From an uncultured Christensenellaceae bacterium (GTDB taxonomy: Bacteria > Bacillota > Clostridia > Christensenellales > UMGS416): 64,000 nt of DNA. The DNA lies in the NCBI GenBank assembly GCA_944376795.1, contig CALWDW010000012.1, positions 62,001 to 126,000 on the forward strand. Reading direction: 5' to 3'. The notes below the pieces were generated by a model that worked only from the letters and a program-made list of their open reading frames with translations, was not told where the DNA came from and did not search any database. The position numbers and the translations under genes were made by a program. Below are positions 35,504 to 59,956 of the stretch, piece after piece. Each line of letters begins with the position of its first letter. Positions within the stretch are counted from its first letter, which is position 1.

Positions 35504-36802
35504 ATGAAAAAACTCATTGCCTTGGCAGCGGCCCTGCTCGTGATCCTGGCCGGCTGCACGGCGGCGCCGGTGTTCGAACCCACGGTAGCCCCCACCGAGG
35601 AGCCCGTGGCAGCCCCCACCGAAGCGCCTACAGAGGCCCCCACCGAGGAGCCCACGGAGGCCCCCGCCGAGGAGCCCACGGAGGCCCCCACCGAAGCGCC
35701 TGCGGAAACCCCTGCCGCGGAGGAGACTCCGGCGGCGCTGGAGCTCCCCAAAGAGACCGCGGCCCCCGCCAATACGGGCAGCGTGGATCTCTACAGCTTC
35801 ACCTTTACCCTGAATGGCGTGGATTACACCCTGCCCTGTGCCTATTCGGTCTTTGTGGAGAATGGATGGGCCATTGAGGACGTGGATGAGCTGGAGATGG
35901 AGGAAAGCCAGTATGCCGTAGCCAACCGGATGGAGCAGAATGGCGCGGAGGTCTACGCCGAGCTGGTGAATCTCACCGAGGATACCATCACCGGCAGCGC
36001 GGCCCAGGTGGGCGGCATCAGCATGGACCAGTACCAGGCCGAAGATGGCGCGCAGCTTGTGTTCCCCGGCGGCATCACCCTGGGAAGCACGGACGAGGCG
36101 GTGCTGGCGGCCTATGGCGCCCCCAGCAGCATCTATAATGGCAGCACCTATGATAAGTATACTTACCAGCTGGACCTCTATAGCTATGCTGAGGTTTGGG
36201 TTGACCTGGAGACCAAGCAGGTCATTGAGCTGGATATGCGCTGCTTCATGACGCCGGAGGTGCCGGTCATGCCGGAGGGCCTGGAGATTCCGGAGGAGAT
36301 CGCCTCCTACCAGGCGCCCGCCGCCATGAGCGAGGATATCACCAGCTTTGAGGTGACCTTGGACGGCGCGGTCTACAAGATCCCGGCTCCCGTGCGCGCG
36401 TTCCTGGACAATGGCTGGATTCTCCAGCAGGCGGACGACGAGATGGTGGATGACGACGATTACACCTACGGCGTGCTGCGCAAGGGCAACCAGGTGATGG
36501 ATACCGTGCTCTACAACATCACCGAGGAAGAGCAGAGCGTGTTCAACTGCGTGGTCAGCCAGGTGGCCGTGAGCGATATTGACTGTGCGGGCCTGGAGAT
36601 GATCCTTCCCGGCGGAATCAAGCGCGGGGATACCGAGGAAGCCCTCGTGGCCGCGTTGGAGGGCGTCCCTTACGAGGTGGATGACGAATCCTCCATGTTC
36701 ACCTATTACGAGATCGAGGCCGACGTCCTCCAGGGTGTTACCATCGCTGTGGATAAGGAGACCGGCCTGGTCTATCAGCTGGAAGTGGAGTTCTGGCCGT
36801 AG
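35504..36802 (+). CDS. Lipoprotein with PTE/A-rich linker and duplicated domain
   Basis: This 432-residue protein has a lipoprotein signal (MKKLIALAAALLVILAGC; Cys18 is the lipidated residue). A linker of about 60 residues made of TEAP and TEEP repeats follows. After it come two related domains of about 150 residues. They start SFTFTLNGVDYTLPCAYSVFVENGW and SFEVTLDGAVYKIPAPVRAFLDNGW, and each carries a later LVFPGGITLGST / MILPGGIKRGDT block. It is anchored outside the cell. The function is unknown; the repeats suggest a spacer through the cell wall. The family is not recognised. A strong terminator follows. Confidence 0.9.
   Translation: MKKLIALAAALLVILAGCTAAPVFEPTVAPTEEPVAAPTEAPTEAPTEEPTEAPAEEPTEAPTEAPAETPAAEETPAALELPKETAAPANTGSVDLYSFTFTLNGVDYTLPCAYSVFVENGWAIEDVDELEMEESQYAVANRMEQNGAEVYAELVNLTEDTITGSAAQVGGISMDQYQAEDGAQLVFPGGITLGSTDEAVLAAYGAPSSIYNGSTYDKYTYQLDLYSYAEVWVDLETKQVIELDMRCFMTPEVPVMPEGLEIPEEIASYQAPAAMSEDITSFEVTLDGAVYKIPAPVRAFLDNGWILQQADDEMVDDDDYTYGVLRKGNQVMDTVLYNITEEEQSVFNCVVSQVAVSDIDCAGLEMILPGGIKRGDTEEALVAALEGVPYEVDDESSMFTYYEIEADVLQGVTIAVDKETGLVYQLEVEFWP
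35575..35720 (+). repeat. Short tandem repeats encoding the TEAP/TEEP linker
   Basis: Imperfect repeats of about 12 and 24 bp, built from GAGGCCCCCACCGA and GAGGAGCCCACGGA, lie within the lipoprotein gene. Such repeats can change copy number by slippage. Confidence 0.7.
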
Positions 36803-37118: not shown

Positions 37119-37607
37119 TCAATCCAGGGGCAGATAGTACAGGCAGATGTCTTCGTAATGTCCGTCCTTCATGCGGAATCCTCCGGGGATGATGCCCAGG
37201 GGGCGGAATCCCAAACGCTGGTACAGCCGGTTAGCTCGGGTATTGGAGGCCACCACGGCGTTAAACTGCATGAGACGGAAGCCGTGGGCCCGGGCCTGGG
37301 CCAGGCTGTCCTTGACCAGGGCCTCCCCTGCGTGCTGGCCCCGGCAGTCCCGCCGGACCGCATAGCTGGCGTTGCCGATGTGGCCGCAGCGGCCGATATT
37401 ATTGGGGTGCAGGATATACAGCCCCAGGAGCTCGCCGTCCCGCAGGGCGACGCCGCAGTGGGTTTGGGCGGCAAAGAAGGCCGCGCCGCTTTCGGGGGTT
37501 AGGAACTCTTCCTGGGGGAAGGCTTCTCCGTCCTCCACCACCTGGTTCCAGATGCGCACCATGGCGGGTACGTCTTCCGGGCGGTAGGCCCGCAGCAAAA
37601 TATCCAT
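37119..37607 (-). CDS. GNAT-family N-acetyltransferase
   Basis: This 162-residue GNAT protein has a degenerate acetyl-CoA loop (RRDCRGQHAGEALVKDSLAQA) and the usual C-terminal LYQRLGFRPLGIIPGGF. The start MDILLRAYRPEDVPAMVRIWNQV resembles phosphinothricin-type or YhhY-like acetyltransferases, but the substrate is unknown. AAGGAGGC lies 7 nt before the ATG. It starts 12 nt after the mntP stop, so both are probably on one transcript governed by the manganese riboswitch upstream of mntP. Confidence 0.9.
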   Translation of the reverse strand: MDILLRAYRPEDVPAMVRIWNQVVEDGEAFPQEEFLTPESGAAFFAAQTHCGVALRDGELLGLYILHPNNIGRCGHIGNASYAVRRDCRGQHAGEALVKDSLAQARAHGFRLMQFNAVVASNTRANRLYQRLGFRPLGIIPGGFRMKDGHYEDICLYYLPLD

Positions 37608-37619
37608 GAGGAAGCCTCC

Positions 37620-38171
37620 TTAGCCGAAAAAGGCAATCTTCAGCCCGATGAGCACCAGGATGATGCCTCCGGCGATCTGCGCCTTATCGCTGAGCAGGGC
37701 GCCGACCTTGTGCCCGATAAAGACGCTGCCCAGGCTGATGCAGAGGGTGGTCAGGGCGATGACGCCGGCGGAGAGAAAAATATTGCTCTCCATAGCGGCC
37801 AGGCTCAGCCCCACCGCCAGGGCGTCGATGCTGGTGGCCACGGCCTGCAGCAGCACCGTGGGAAGGAAGCTGCGGCGAGAGGGAGCCTGGGGCTCTTCCT
37901 TTTTGCAGCCGTCCCAGATCATCTTGCCGCCGACCAGGGCCAGCAGGACGAGGGCGAACCAGCCGGCGAAGGCCTGAACATAGCCCGAGATCAAAGACCC
38001 GGCGGCATAGCCGATCAGGGGCATCAGCCCCTGGAAGAGCCCAAAGGCCAGGGCGATGACCAGACATCGCGCCGTGTTGAATTTCTTCATGGTCAGGCCG
38101 TGGGTCGCGGATACGGCGGCGGCATCCATGGACAGGCCCACGCCGATCAGGACGCATTCGAGGATGGACAT
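37620..38171 (-). CDS. mntP: Manganese efflux pump MntP
   Basis: This 183-residue membrane protein with six helices in two repeats has the family motifs GVGLSMDAAAVSATHGLTM and QAVATSIDALAVGLSLA; the Asp residues in these motifs bind Mn2+ (family knowledge). It exports Mn2+ from the cytoplasm. The start ATG at 38171 follows AAAAAGGAG; the frame upstream is a riboswitch, not protein. A yybP-ykoY riboswitch with terminator lies directly upstream, which independently supports the assignment. A GNAT gene follows 12 nt downstream. Confidence 0.96.
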   Translation of the reverse strand: MSILECVLIGVGLSMDAAAVSATHGLTMKKFNTARCLVIALAFGLFQGLMPLIGYAAGSLISGYVQAFAGWFALVLLALVGGKMIWDGCKKEEPQAPSRRSFLPTVLLQAVATSIDALAVGLSLAAMESNIFLSAGVIALTTLCISLGSVFIGHKVGALLSDKAQIAGGIILVLIGLKIAFFG

Positions 38172-38202
38172 AGCACATTCTCCTTTTTCTTGGGTGGTGG
38201 CA

Positions 38203-38241
38203 ATAAAAAAAGACTTTGCGCGCAAAAAACGCCAAAAGTCT
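38203..38241 (-). terminator. Riboswitch-controlled terminator before mntP
   Basis: In the minus transcript AGACTTT (38241-38235) pairs with AAAGTCT (38217-38211) and is followed by seven U residues. The left strand is also part of the aptamer's conserved end, so ligand binding would prevent the terminator. Confidence 0.85.
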
Positions 38242-38318
38242 CGCAAACCATTCCGGCCGCAGCGCCAGGCCCGAGGCCAGTATGTTGACGCTGCGAAAGA
38301 GCTACTCCCTTTCAACCC
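38234..38318 (-). ncRNA. yybP-ykoY manganese riboswitch
   Basis: On the minus strand the aptamer shows the conserved pieces in order: AAAGGGAGTAGC (gctactccct on the plus strand at 38301-38310), GTCAACATACTGGCC (38289 downward), and GCGAGACTTTT (38244-38234), with paired segments between them. These are hallmarks of the yybP-ykoY class, which senses Mn2+ and turns on efflux genes. Transcription should start near 38316, just before the aptamer. Confidence 0.9.
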
Positions 38319-38322
38319 CATT

Positions 38323-38351
38323 ATTGTAGCCGAAAAACCCCCGCGGCGCAA
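38323..38351 (-). promoter_or_regulatory. Promoter of the riboswitch-mntP transcript
   Basis: Minus-strand TTGCGC (38351-38346), 17 bp, TACAAT (38328-38323). Confidence 0.8.
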
Positions 38352-38505: not shown

Positions 38506-40263
38506 ATGCATTACGACAAGTTTATGCTCAAAAGGTTTATCGGCTATTACCGCAAGTACAGGGGCCTCTTTTTTACGGACCTGCTTTGCGCGCTGCTGGT
38601 GGCGGCCATTGAGCTAATCTATCCCCGGGTGACCACCGTCATCATTGACGAGTACATTCCCCAGGGCCTGCTGACCCAGATCCTGATTGCCGCGGCGGTG
38701 CTGCTGGGGCTGTACATCCTGATGGCGGGGCTCAATTACTTCCTGCACTACTGGGGGCACATCATTGGCGTCAATATGGAGGCTGACATGCGGGCCGATT
38801 TTTTTGCCCATCTGGAGAGCATGCCCTTCCAGTTCTTTGACCGCAACCGCACCGGTAAGCTGATGAGCCGCCTGGTCAACGACCTCAACCTCATCGCGGA
38901 ATTGGCGCACCATGGCCCGGAGGATATTTTCATTGCCCTGGTCATGTTTATTGGTTCCTTTGTGGTGCTGGTGCAGACCGAGTGGAGGATGACCTGCATC
39001 ATCTATTTCGGCATTGTACCCATCATTTTCTGGTTTGCCATCACCCAGCGCCGGAAGATGGGGGAGGGCTTCCGCATGGTGCAGAAAAGCACCGCCGACA
39101 TCAATGCCCAGATTGAGAACAGCCTCTCCGGCGTCCGGGTTTCCAAGAGCTACACCAACGAGGACTATGAGATCCAGCGCTTTGCCGAGGGAAACAGCAA
39201 GTTCCGCGGGGCCAAGGACTACTCCTACAAGTGCATGGCCCGGTTCATGACGGGCATGGGCTTCTTGGTCTCCATCCTGAATCTGTCGGTACTCACCTTG
39301 GGCGGGGTTTTCTGCTGCACCGGGGTGATTACCACCGGCGAGCTGGCGGGTTTTCTGCTCTATGTGAACCTGGTGATCCAGCCGGTGAACCGCTTGGTCA
39401 ACTTCACCCAGCAGTTTGAACAGGGCATGACAGGCTTCAGCCGTTTTCATGAGATCATGTGCGTTAAGAGCGACATCGTAGGCGGGCAGCGGGTGCTGGA
39501 GAACGTCCGGGGGGCCATTACGTTTGATAAGGTGACCTTTTCCTACGATGAGGAGGAGACCATCCTGCGGGATATCAGCCTGTCGGTGGAGCCGGGAACT
39601 ACCGTGGCCCTGGTGGGCCCCTCCGGCGGAGGCAAAACCACCCTGTGCCACCTGATTCCCCGGTTCTATGACGTGCAGCAGGGTGCGATCCGGATTGATG
39701 GCTGCGATATCCGGGAGTTTACCCTCAAGTCTCTTCGGGATCAGATCGGCCTGGTGCAGCAGGATGTCTTTCTCTTTACCGGCACCATTGGAGAGAACAT
39801 TCTGTACGGCCGTCCCAGCGCCTCCCGGGAGGAGATGATCCAGGCCGCCAAGCGGGCCGATATTCACGACTTTATTGAGAGCCTCCCCGACGGGTACGAT
39901 ACTTGGGTGGGAGAGAAGGGCGTGCGCCTCTCCGGAGGACAGAAGCAGAGAATTTCCATTGCCCGGGTTTTCCTGAAAAACCCGCCCATCCTGCTGCTGG
40001 ATGAAGCCACCAGCGCCCTGGACAATGAGACCGAGATTAAGATTCAACACGCCCTGGAGGAGCTCAGCCGCGGACGGACTACGCTGGTCATTGCCCACCG
40101 CCTTTCTACGATACGAAATGCGGACGTCATCCTTGTCATGACCAGCGAGGGGATTGTGGAGCAGGGCAGCCATCGTGAACTGTATGAGAAGGGCGGGATT
40201 TACCGCCGGCTCTACGACGCCCAGTTCCGCTTCGAGGAGGATCGGGCCGACTTGTTTGGCTGA
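38506..40263 (+). CDS. ABC exporter, fused permease-ATPase
   Basis: This 585-residue MsbA-type half transporter has six helices in residues 1 to about 320, then Walker A GPSGGGKTTLCH near 373, signature RLSGGQKQRISIARV, Walker B ILLLDEATSALD and a switch His in VIAHRLSTIRNAD. Both catalytic motifs are intact, so a homodimer is likely. The substrate is unknown. AGGAGGATACGG precedes the ATG, with a long spacing of about 13 nt. It is divergent from the mntP transcript and lies upstream of the aromatic operon, separated by a hairpin and the pheA promoter. Confidence 0.95.
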   Translation: MHYDKFMLKRFIGYYRKYRGLFFTDLLCALLVAAIELIYPRVTTVIIDEYIPQGLLTQILIAAAVLLGLYILMAGLNYFLHYWGHIIGVNMEADMRADFFAHLESMPFQFFDRNRTGKLMSRLVNDLNLIAELAHHGPEDIFIALVMFIGSFVVLVQTEWRMTCIIYFGIVPIIFWFAITQRRKMGEGFRMVQKSTADINAQIENSLSGVRVSKSYTNEDYEIQRFAEGNSKFRGAKDYSYKCMARFMTGMGFLVSILNLSVLTLGGVFCCTGVITTGELAGFLLYVNLVIQPVNRLVNFTQQFEQGMTGFSRFHEIMCVKSDIVGGQRVLENVRGAITFDKVTFSYDEEETILRDISLSVEPGTTVALVGPSGGGKTTLCHLIPRFYDVQQGAIRIDGCDIREFTLKSLRDQIGLVQQDVFLFTGTIGENILYGRPSASREEMIQAAKRADIHDFIESLPDGYDTWVGEKGVRLSGGQKQRISIARVFLKNPPILLLDEATSALDNETEIKIQHALEELSRGRTTLVIAHRLSTIRNADVILVMTSEGIVEQGSHRELYEKGGIYRRLYDAQFRFEEDRADLFG

Positions 40264-58840: not shown

Positions 58841-59956
58841 ATGAAAATCACTTCGGTCAAGCCTTTGCAGAGCGACAAGAACGTATTTGTGAAGATCACC
58901 ACCGACGAGGGAATCTTTGGCATCGGCGACGGAACCCTGCACACCCGGGCCAAGGGCGTGGTGGCCGTGCTCACCGACCTGGAGCCGGTGCTGGTGGGGA
59001 AGGATCCCATGCAGACCGAGCGGCTGTGGCAGGAGATCTACCGGGGGACCTTCTGGCGCGGCGGCCCCATTCTGATGGCGGCCTTGTCGGCGGTGGACAT
59101 TGCCTTGTGGGATATCAAGGGCAAGGCGCTCAATACACCCGTCTATAATCTTTTGGGCGGCCCCAGCCGGGAAAAGATCCGTATGTATACCCATTGCAAT
59201 GGAAAGACCCCGGAGGAGCTTTGCCGCAATGCGGAGGCGCTGCTCAAGGAAGGCTATACCTGCCTGCGCATCTGCCCCTATGACAATCTCAAGGACGGCT
59301 TTTTTGAGCCGGGGATCCAGGTGCGGAAGGTTGCGGCATATATGAAGGCTCTGCGCGACTGTGTGGGGGAGGATGTGGAGATCATTCTGGAGTGTCATAC
59401 CCGTCTGACTCCCTCCTGGGCCATCAAGCTCTGCGAGAGCGTAGCGCCCTATCATCCGCTCTTTGTGGAAGATGCGCTGCGTGCCGATAGCCCGGAAAGC
59501 TACCGTGTGCTCCGCGCCCATACCAACCTGGCCTTGGGAACCGGGGAAAAGTTCGGAGCCCCCTGGGACTACAAGACGGTGTTTGAGGAGGACCTGATCG
59601 ACTACTGCCGCACCGATATCTGCAATGGAGGAGGCATCACCTCCTTTATGAAGATCGCCCACTACGCCGAGAGCCACTACATTGAGATGGTACCCCACGG
59701 ACTGCCCAGTCCCATCGGGCAGATGGCCGCCCTCCACTGCGATTTGGCCGTTACCAACTTTGCTCTCCAGGAACGGGGGCTGCACCGCCCGGACATTCCG
59801 TTCATTCAGGCGGATATGACGTTTAAGGACGGCTTTATTTACCTGGGCAGCGAGCCGGGTATCGGCATTCATCTGGATGAAAAAGCGCTGGATCCTATCC
59901 GGCACTATGAACATCCCCACTGGGTGCGGGAGGACGGCTCGGTGCAGGATTGGTAG
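58841..59956 (+). CDS. Enolase-superfamily sugar acid dehydratase (ManD/RspA-like), copy 2
   Basis: This 371-residue protein is roughly two-thirds or more identical by eye to the preceding protein and ends in the same EDGSVQDW. Metal ligands (ILECHTRLTP, LFVEDALR, GTGEKF) and MVPHG are conserved. Differences cluster near the active site: MYTHCNGKTPEE instead of MYVHASGTNPEE, and CNGGGIT instead of CNCGGIT, so substrate or stereochemistry may differ. A run of 41 identical bases (57993-58033 and 59141-59181) suggests recent duplication or gene conversion. AGGAGGAAATAC precedes the ATG. Confidence 0.9.
   Translation: MKITSVKPLQSDKNVFVKITTDEGIFGIGDGTLHTRAKGVVAVLTDLEPVLVGKDPMQTERLWQEIYRGTFWRGGPILMAALSAVDIALWDIKGKALNTPVYNLLGGPSREKIRMYTHCNGKTPEELCRNAEALLKEGYTCLRICPYDNLKDGFFEPGIQVRKVAAYMKALRDCVGEDVEIILECHTRLTPSWAIKLCESVAPYHPLFVEDALRADSPESYRVLRAHTNLALGTGEKFGAPWDYKTVFEEDLIDYCRTDICNGGGITSFMKIAHYAESHYIEMVPHGLPSPIGQMAALHCDLAVTNFALQERGLHRPDIPFIQADMTFKDGFIYLGSEPGIGIHLDEKALDPIRHYEHPHWVREDGSVQDW

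Follow-up and report, generated by a model that had tools for sequence, protein, structure and literature searches.

The best described relatives of the element discussed here are riboswitches of the yybP-ykoY class, which is represented in Rfam by the model RF00080 (Manganese). In Lactococcus lactis, the yybP-ykoY riboswitch is a transcriptional ON switch that contains a switch helix, P1.1, whose 3' segment otherwise joins a terminator (PMC11087558). Mn2+ stabilises P1.1, so the terminator does not form (PMC11087558, PMC6754395, PMC7838592), and the result is Mn2+-induced read-through (PMC11087558). The contrary statement can be found in a review, where Mn2+ riboswitches are called OFF switches (PMC11477304). 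Loops L1 and L3 make up the metal-binding core of the L. lactis riboswitch, which was solved as a four-way junction (PMC6754395). A three-helix version of the family has been reported as well: the yybP-ykoY element of Streptococcus mgtA is described as a three-way junction (PMC9495176). According to a survey of the regulon, a large portion of the controlled genes encode transporters (PMC3766115), and a review likewise places putative cation transporters under yybP-ykoY control (PMC7266159).

A compact element of this kind precedes the Mn2+ transporter gene mntP in the window, the whole stretch of 64,000 nucleotides that was analysed. On the minus strand, 38351-37119 holds, in this order, a promoter-like site, the aptamer, a terminator, mntP and a GNAT acetyltransferase gene. 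Very probably this is a yybP-ykoY (Mn2+) riboswitch that acts on transcription as an ON switch before mntP, with the GNAT gene as a read-through passenger. As a riboswitch before mntP, it is an ordinary member of a known family. The features are as follows; the two promoter boxes and the ribosome-binding site of mntP were read from the sequence. R1 denotes the lineage covariance model described below.

38346 to 38351, minus strand: possible -35 element TTGCGC (3 of 6 consensus positions)
38323 to 38328, minus strand: possible -10 element TACAAT (5 of 6 consensus positions; spacer of 17)
38229 to 38319, minus strand: yybP-ykoY Mn2+ aptamer, compact, without P2 (R1 63.5 bits, E = 2e-14; RF00080 25.6 bits, P3 arm only)
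38309 to 38316, minus strand: 5' strand of P1.1 (8 bp with 38231-38238, 3 of them G-U)
38302 to 38309, minus strand: L1 core GGGAGUAG (the first G closes P1.1 and the last G opens P1.2; invariant alignment columns)
38286 to 38295, minus strand: 5' strand of P3.1 (paired with 38258-38267; 10 bp as used)
38279 to 38285, minus strand: loop L3, ACAUACU (agrees at every base with the RF00080 consensus)
38268 to 38278, minus strand: P3.2 hairpin GGCC-UCG-GGCC (4 bp)
38247 to 38257, minus strand: P4 hairpin GCC-GGAAU-GGU (3 bp including one G-U)
38231 to 38238, minus strand: 3' strand of P1.1, CUUUUGGC (common to the 5' arm of the terminator; the switch)
38205 to 38241, minus strand: intrinsic terminator, made up of a hairpin (38241-38211; -13.2 kcal/mol) and a U run ending at 38205
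38180 to 38185, minus strand: AAGGAG, ribosome-binding site for mntP (8 nt upstream of the ATG)
37620 to 38171, minus strand: mntP, Mn2+ efflux pump of 183 aa (Pfam Mntp, 1.3e-43)
37615 to 37619, minus strand: GGAGG, ribosome-binding site for the GNAT gene (adjoins the stop codon of mntP)
37119 to 37607, minus strand: GNAT acetyltransferase of 162 aa (Pfam Acetyltransf_1, 1.4e-15)

Membership in the family was assessed with two covariance models. R1 was built from 11 aligned compact homologues in other genomes, with the window and its sister left out, and its structure annotation consists of P1.1, P1.2, P3.1 and P3.2. It finds one match in the window, 38319-38229 on the minus strand, which covers the model from end to end (1-97 of 97). 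Over the 2.68-Mb genome the same site is found alone (E = 8e-13; 150 of 477 first-look candidates scored). Across the order, 77 of 396 genomes match at E <= 0.001, with the sister genus (G001) ranking first and the window third. In the sister genus the match (73.2 bits, C16:59496-59589) lies just before that genome's own mntP, which begins at 59652. The sister genome also holds a second, sub-threshold RF00080 match (G001:C5:31064-31192, L148; 26.8 bits) on a contig other than that of mntP.

The preliminary description had named an Rfam covariance search as the way to confirm the aptamer. In that form the confirmation does not hold, since RF00080 gives no match in the window at its gathering score of 45 bits; it is the full-length match to R1 that bears out the assignment. 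At a permissive threshold, RF00080 matches only 38293-38260, the P3 arm with L3 (25.6 bits, model positions 48-84), and the remainder of this 177-position model is left unmatched by the element. Two further RF00080 matches in the genome (13 and 12.1 bits) were considered as other Mn2+ riboswitches; they are not seen by R1 and are probably due to chance.

Taken literally, the Rfam miss is the outcome that the preliminary description would have counted against the aptamer; it does not refute the assignment and is not decisive, because the same cut-off misses all 20 homologues (12 compact, 8 with P2) and the lineage model matches strongly. Four of 10 homologues missed at the gathering score are seen by RF00080 at E <= 0.1. 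None of 61 relatives reaches the gathering score, and 2 of 14 control genomes do, whereas the lineage model matches in 77 of the order's genomes. The Rfam manganese cut-off therefore misses such elements in this order, and the manganese regulons of the order are probably under-annotated.

The conserved features of the class are present in the window element: L1 (GGGAGUAG) and L3 (CAACAUACU), together with the GAGA strand that faces L3. Both loops agree with the conserved bases of the homologue group and of RF00080. These loops, read here as the metal-binding core as in L. lactis (PMC6754395), support placing the element in the Mn2+ class, and this copy would be expected to bind Mn2+.

The architecture is reduced relative to the four-way junction of L. 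lactis (PMC6754395). P1 and P3 are clear, P1.2 has 2 bp, P2 is missing, and P4 is a short hairpin of 3 bp. A junction of three helices would be shared with the Streptococcus mgtA element (PMC9495176). P4 lies between P3.1 and P1.2 in the homologue group, where it is supported by folding: for 33 of the 41 members aligned, no more than 10 of 200 shuffles equal or better the native fold, and the stem sequences differ. The mean energy of the P4 segments is -4.0 kcal/mol, versus -0.7 kcal/mol for shuffles, over 41 members of which some are near-identical and which are thus not 41 independent cases. In the window copy P4 is weak, 24 of 200 shuffles being equally good. The alignment spans 40 loci, that of the window among them, and in 38 of its 41 members P1.1 reaches 5 bp or more (counted without a shuffle control).

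The absence of P2 can be followed in the distance between L1 and L3. This gap is 12 nt for the window element, for that of the sister genus (L086) and for L102, and 13 nt for L005; in the other 20 elements listed it is 19-38 nt, which leaves room for a P2 hairpin. A pattern search of 391 genomes of the class found matches in 66, and 16 of the 70 matches, window included, have a gap of at most 14 nt. The missing P2 likely explains the poor match to RF00080. Compact Mn2+ riboswitches without P2 from the same class and order resemble the window element in their gap of 12-14 nt, their P4 hairpin and their overlapping terminator. The window copy differs from them by its short P4 stem and by the linker CUCUUUC, which it shares with the sister genus.

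A reduced element may also be a decayed one, in which the P3 arm survives and the rest no longer binds Mn2+. This reading would account for the match of the P3 arm alone to RF00080 and for the weak P4. It also draws on the predicted fold: the aptamer structure is calculated at -30.5 kcal/mol and the predicted minimum for the same stretch at -35.5 kcal/mol, a calculation that leaves out tertiary contacts and Mn2+. In the minimum the aptamer is replaced by a competing hairpin, GAAAGGG-AGUAG-CUCUUUC (38313-38295), which buries L1. Decay is nevertheless very unlikely. The lineage model is matched over its full length, L1, L3, the GAGA strand and the overlap between P1.1 and the terminator are all intact, and the sister genus has the same layout. 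The short form moreover recurs (16 of 70 matches) and is therefore not the decay of one copy.

The competing hairpin was also considered as an internal latch that ties up L1 and the 5' strand of P1.1 when Mn2+ is absent. With 27 of 300 linker shuffles equally good, the latch is unproven. At -7.1 kcal/mol (24-nt segment) the hairpin is found only in the window and the sister genus among the 41 members, and 17 of the 41 have no such hairpin.

The mntP product carries the Pfam Mntp domain over most of its length, at 148.8 bits (cut-off 24.4; query taken one codon early, from 38174), and is the sole Mntp match in the genome. The NCBIfam MntP equivalog gives 114.5 bits, short of its cut-off of 214. 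Transporters of other kinds are frequent at the same position in the homologue group. The first genes behind 40 group elements comprise 17 P-type cation ATPases, 10 Na/Ca exchangers, 4 MntP, 4 GDT1 and 2 CitMHS transporters; none was found for L156, and a fifth mntP, beyond the four tallied, lies behind the group element at L187.

Variants of yybP that differ in ion specificity are expected according to a review (PMC7266159), and the element could sense a metal other than Mn2+. For the window copy this is most unlikely: its L3 has the consensus sequence ACAUACU and it stands before mntP, whereas many members with an altered L3 precede other transporters.

Variation of this kind can be seen elsewhere in the order. 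Ten compact elements precede the Na/Ca-exchanger cluster (named after the Pfam tally as a whole rather than from each member). In 6 of them a G-C pair replaces the A-U pair next to L3, and L3 is usually changed, for example to UCAUC-AC. The six, all among the order's R1 matches, are L195, L198, L204, L206, L210 and L211, and lie near 1501-1600 of their loci (L195: 1158-1253). Of the 31 remaining members of the alignment, L201 and L214 also have G-C at this place. The six genomes belong to one family and the comparison covered the 30 best loci, so the six may represent one event. Such elements may have an altered ion specificity. One locus, L212, carries two riboswitches: that at 691-786 has a long L1-L3 gap and stands before an mntP-like gene, and that at 1501-1601 is compact, has a different L3 and is followed by a member of the Na/Ca-exchanger cluster.

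The direction of switching can be predicted from the way in which aptamer and terminator overlap. The last strand of the aptamer and the first strand of the terminator have AGACUUU in common, as the preliminary description had observed and as the helix pairs and the terminator fold bear out. More exactly, CUUUUGGC (38238-38231) forms the 3' strand of P1.1 and is also part of the 5' arm of the terminator. The group shows the same overlap: for 39 of the 41 members aligned, this strand of P1.1 takes part in the best hairpin that precedes a U run, a count made without a shuffle control. A consensus terminator scan of the window does not list the riboswitch terminator, and the 2x2 internal loop in its stem is taken as the reason.

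Because P1.1 (on its 3' side) and the terminator (on its 5' side) compete for one strand, Mn2+ should switch mntP ON, the same logic as the Mn2+-induced read-through of L. lactis (PMC11087558). At low Mn2+, CUUUUGGC would pair into the terminator hairpin and RNA polymerase would stop at the U run, short of mntP. Under excess Mn2+, the ion would bridge L1 and L3 and P1.1 would stay together. The terminator could then not form, mntP would be transcribed, and Mn2+ would be exported. Transcription would probably continue across the GNAT gene, which begins 12 nt further on and whose expression would rise with Mn2+ as a passenger. The earlier reading of the switching logic from the strand overlap, with mntP as the controlled gene, is in this way supported by R1, by the folds and by comparison with the group.

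A promoter-like site can be seen before the aptamer. It agrees with the consensus at 8 of 12 positions, which is under the threshold of the consensus scan, so the scan does not list it. The candidate is weak, with a good -10 box and a poor -35 box. If it is a real promoter, the RNA would be expected to begin near 38316, where P1.1 has its first base. Compared with dinucleotide shuffles of itself, the leader has the better fold (z = -2.65; 2 of 200 shuffles equally good). With this weak promoter-like site, the R1 match of 63.5 bits and a hairpin of -13.2 kcal/mol followed by a U run, the three parts named in the preliminary description (promoter, yybP-ykoY aptamer and terminator) are all present. 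On the other side of the promoter-like site, about 155 nt away, starts a divergent gene for an MsbA-like ABC exporter (38506-40263), which does not reach the cut-off for any of the 25 NCBIfam models listed.

The second gene of the putative transcript encodes a GNAT protein that scores 58 bits against Acetyltransf_1 (cut-off 20.7) and reaches the cut-off of none of 8 NCBIfam models. Its best solved relatives are a GCN5-related N-acetyltransferase (4h89, 4.9e-22), then the MPR1 protein, then phosphinothricin-type enzymes. The gene does start 12 nt after mntP, as described earlier (gap 37619-37608), and the gap begins with GGAGG. Co-transcription with mntP, and hence a response to Mn2+, is likely from this position: the gap is short, GGAGG follows the mntP stop codon, and the consensus scan lists no sigma-70-type site on the minus strand in either gene. 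It does list a terminator-like site of 5 bp in mntP (38014-37999, minus strand), which would oppose read-through; 4 sites of that kind were found, with 3.2 expected from shuffles, about the level of chance.

Co-transcription can be meaningful or incidental. The preliminary description proposed the former, with the acetyltransferase as an unexpected member of the Mn2+ regulon. On that reading the GNAT gene was recruited for Mn2+ tolerance in this lineage and forms a true two-gene regulon with mntP. The spacing of 12 nt, the gene's own ribosome-binding site and the lack of a listed minus-strand promoter-like site in either gene are in its favour. If true, an enzyme, in this case an acetyltransferase, would join the transporters for which the riboswitch regulon is known.

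Comparison with other genomes argues against this. In a tblastn search of 154 loci, GNAT and mntP occur together only in the window's own locus, which is present in four copies. After removal of repeats (L001, L004, L115, L145, L153 and L154), 110 mntP loci were counted, including 30 taken in from relatives; also dropped was L150, a confirmed mntP that is not counted elsewhere and that gave no GNAT match. A same-strand open reading frame of at least 60 aa starts within 80 nt of mntP at 55 of these loci (window included) and is missing at 51; the other 4 have too little downstream sequence. Three of these 55 close followers contain a GNAT domain (window, L047 and L073), and 4 are HAD hydrolases. 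The GNATs of L047 and L073 are unlike that of the window, with no match at E 1e-4 by tblastn.

Close orthologues of the GNAT protein can be found in 7 of 60 relatives, at 49-68% identity. All seven lie on a contig other than that of mntP or at least 50 kb from it. At the five loci surveyed (all but L122 and L116, where the frame found overlaps the GNAT frame itself) the neighbours are truA (twice), dapB, an acyl-ACP thioesterase gene, and an amidohydrolase gene with a MATE transporter gene. The orthologue beside the acyl-ACP thioesterase gene is fused to cinA; at L118:1486-2574 the GNAT orthologue and a CinA domain share one open frame.

GNAT and mntP were thus rejected as a conserved operon, since the linkage is seen only in this genome and the seven orthologues are away from mntP. 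For the same reasons the GNAT gene looks like a passenger in the riboswitch transcript, and the claim that it is a meaningful member of the regulon is not supported. Recruitment of the gene for Mn2+ tolerance is unlikely, and it is equally improbable that the protein has a true Mn2+-induced function, such as acetylation of a metabolite or protein under Mn2+ excess. The genus contains one genome, that of the window. An acetyltransferase with a yybP-ykoY element may already have been noted in the literature; the main text of PMC3766115 makes no mention of one.

A further observation concerns the gene at 35504-36802 of the window, which encodes a protein of 432 aa. An NCBIfam search with this protein gave no match. 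It contains a repeat region towards its N-terminal side (Pfam PT, 3.4e-07), and by eye it resembles two related halves.
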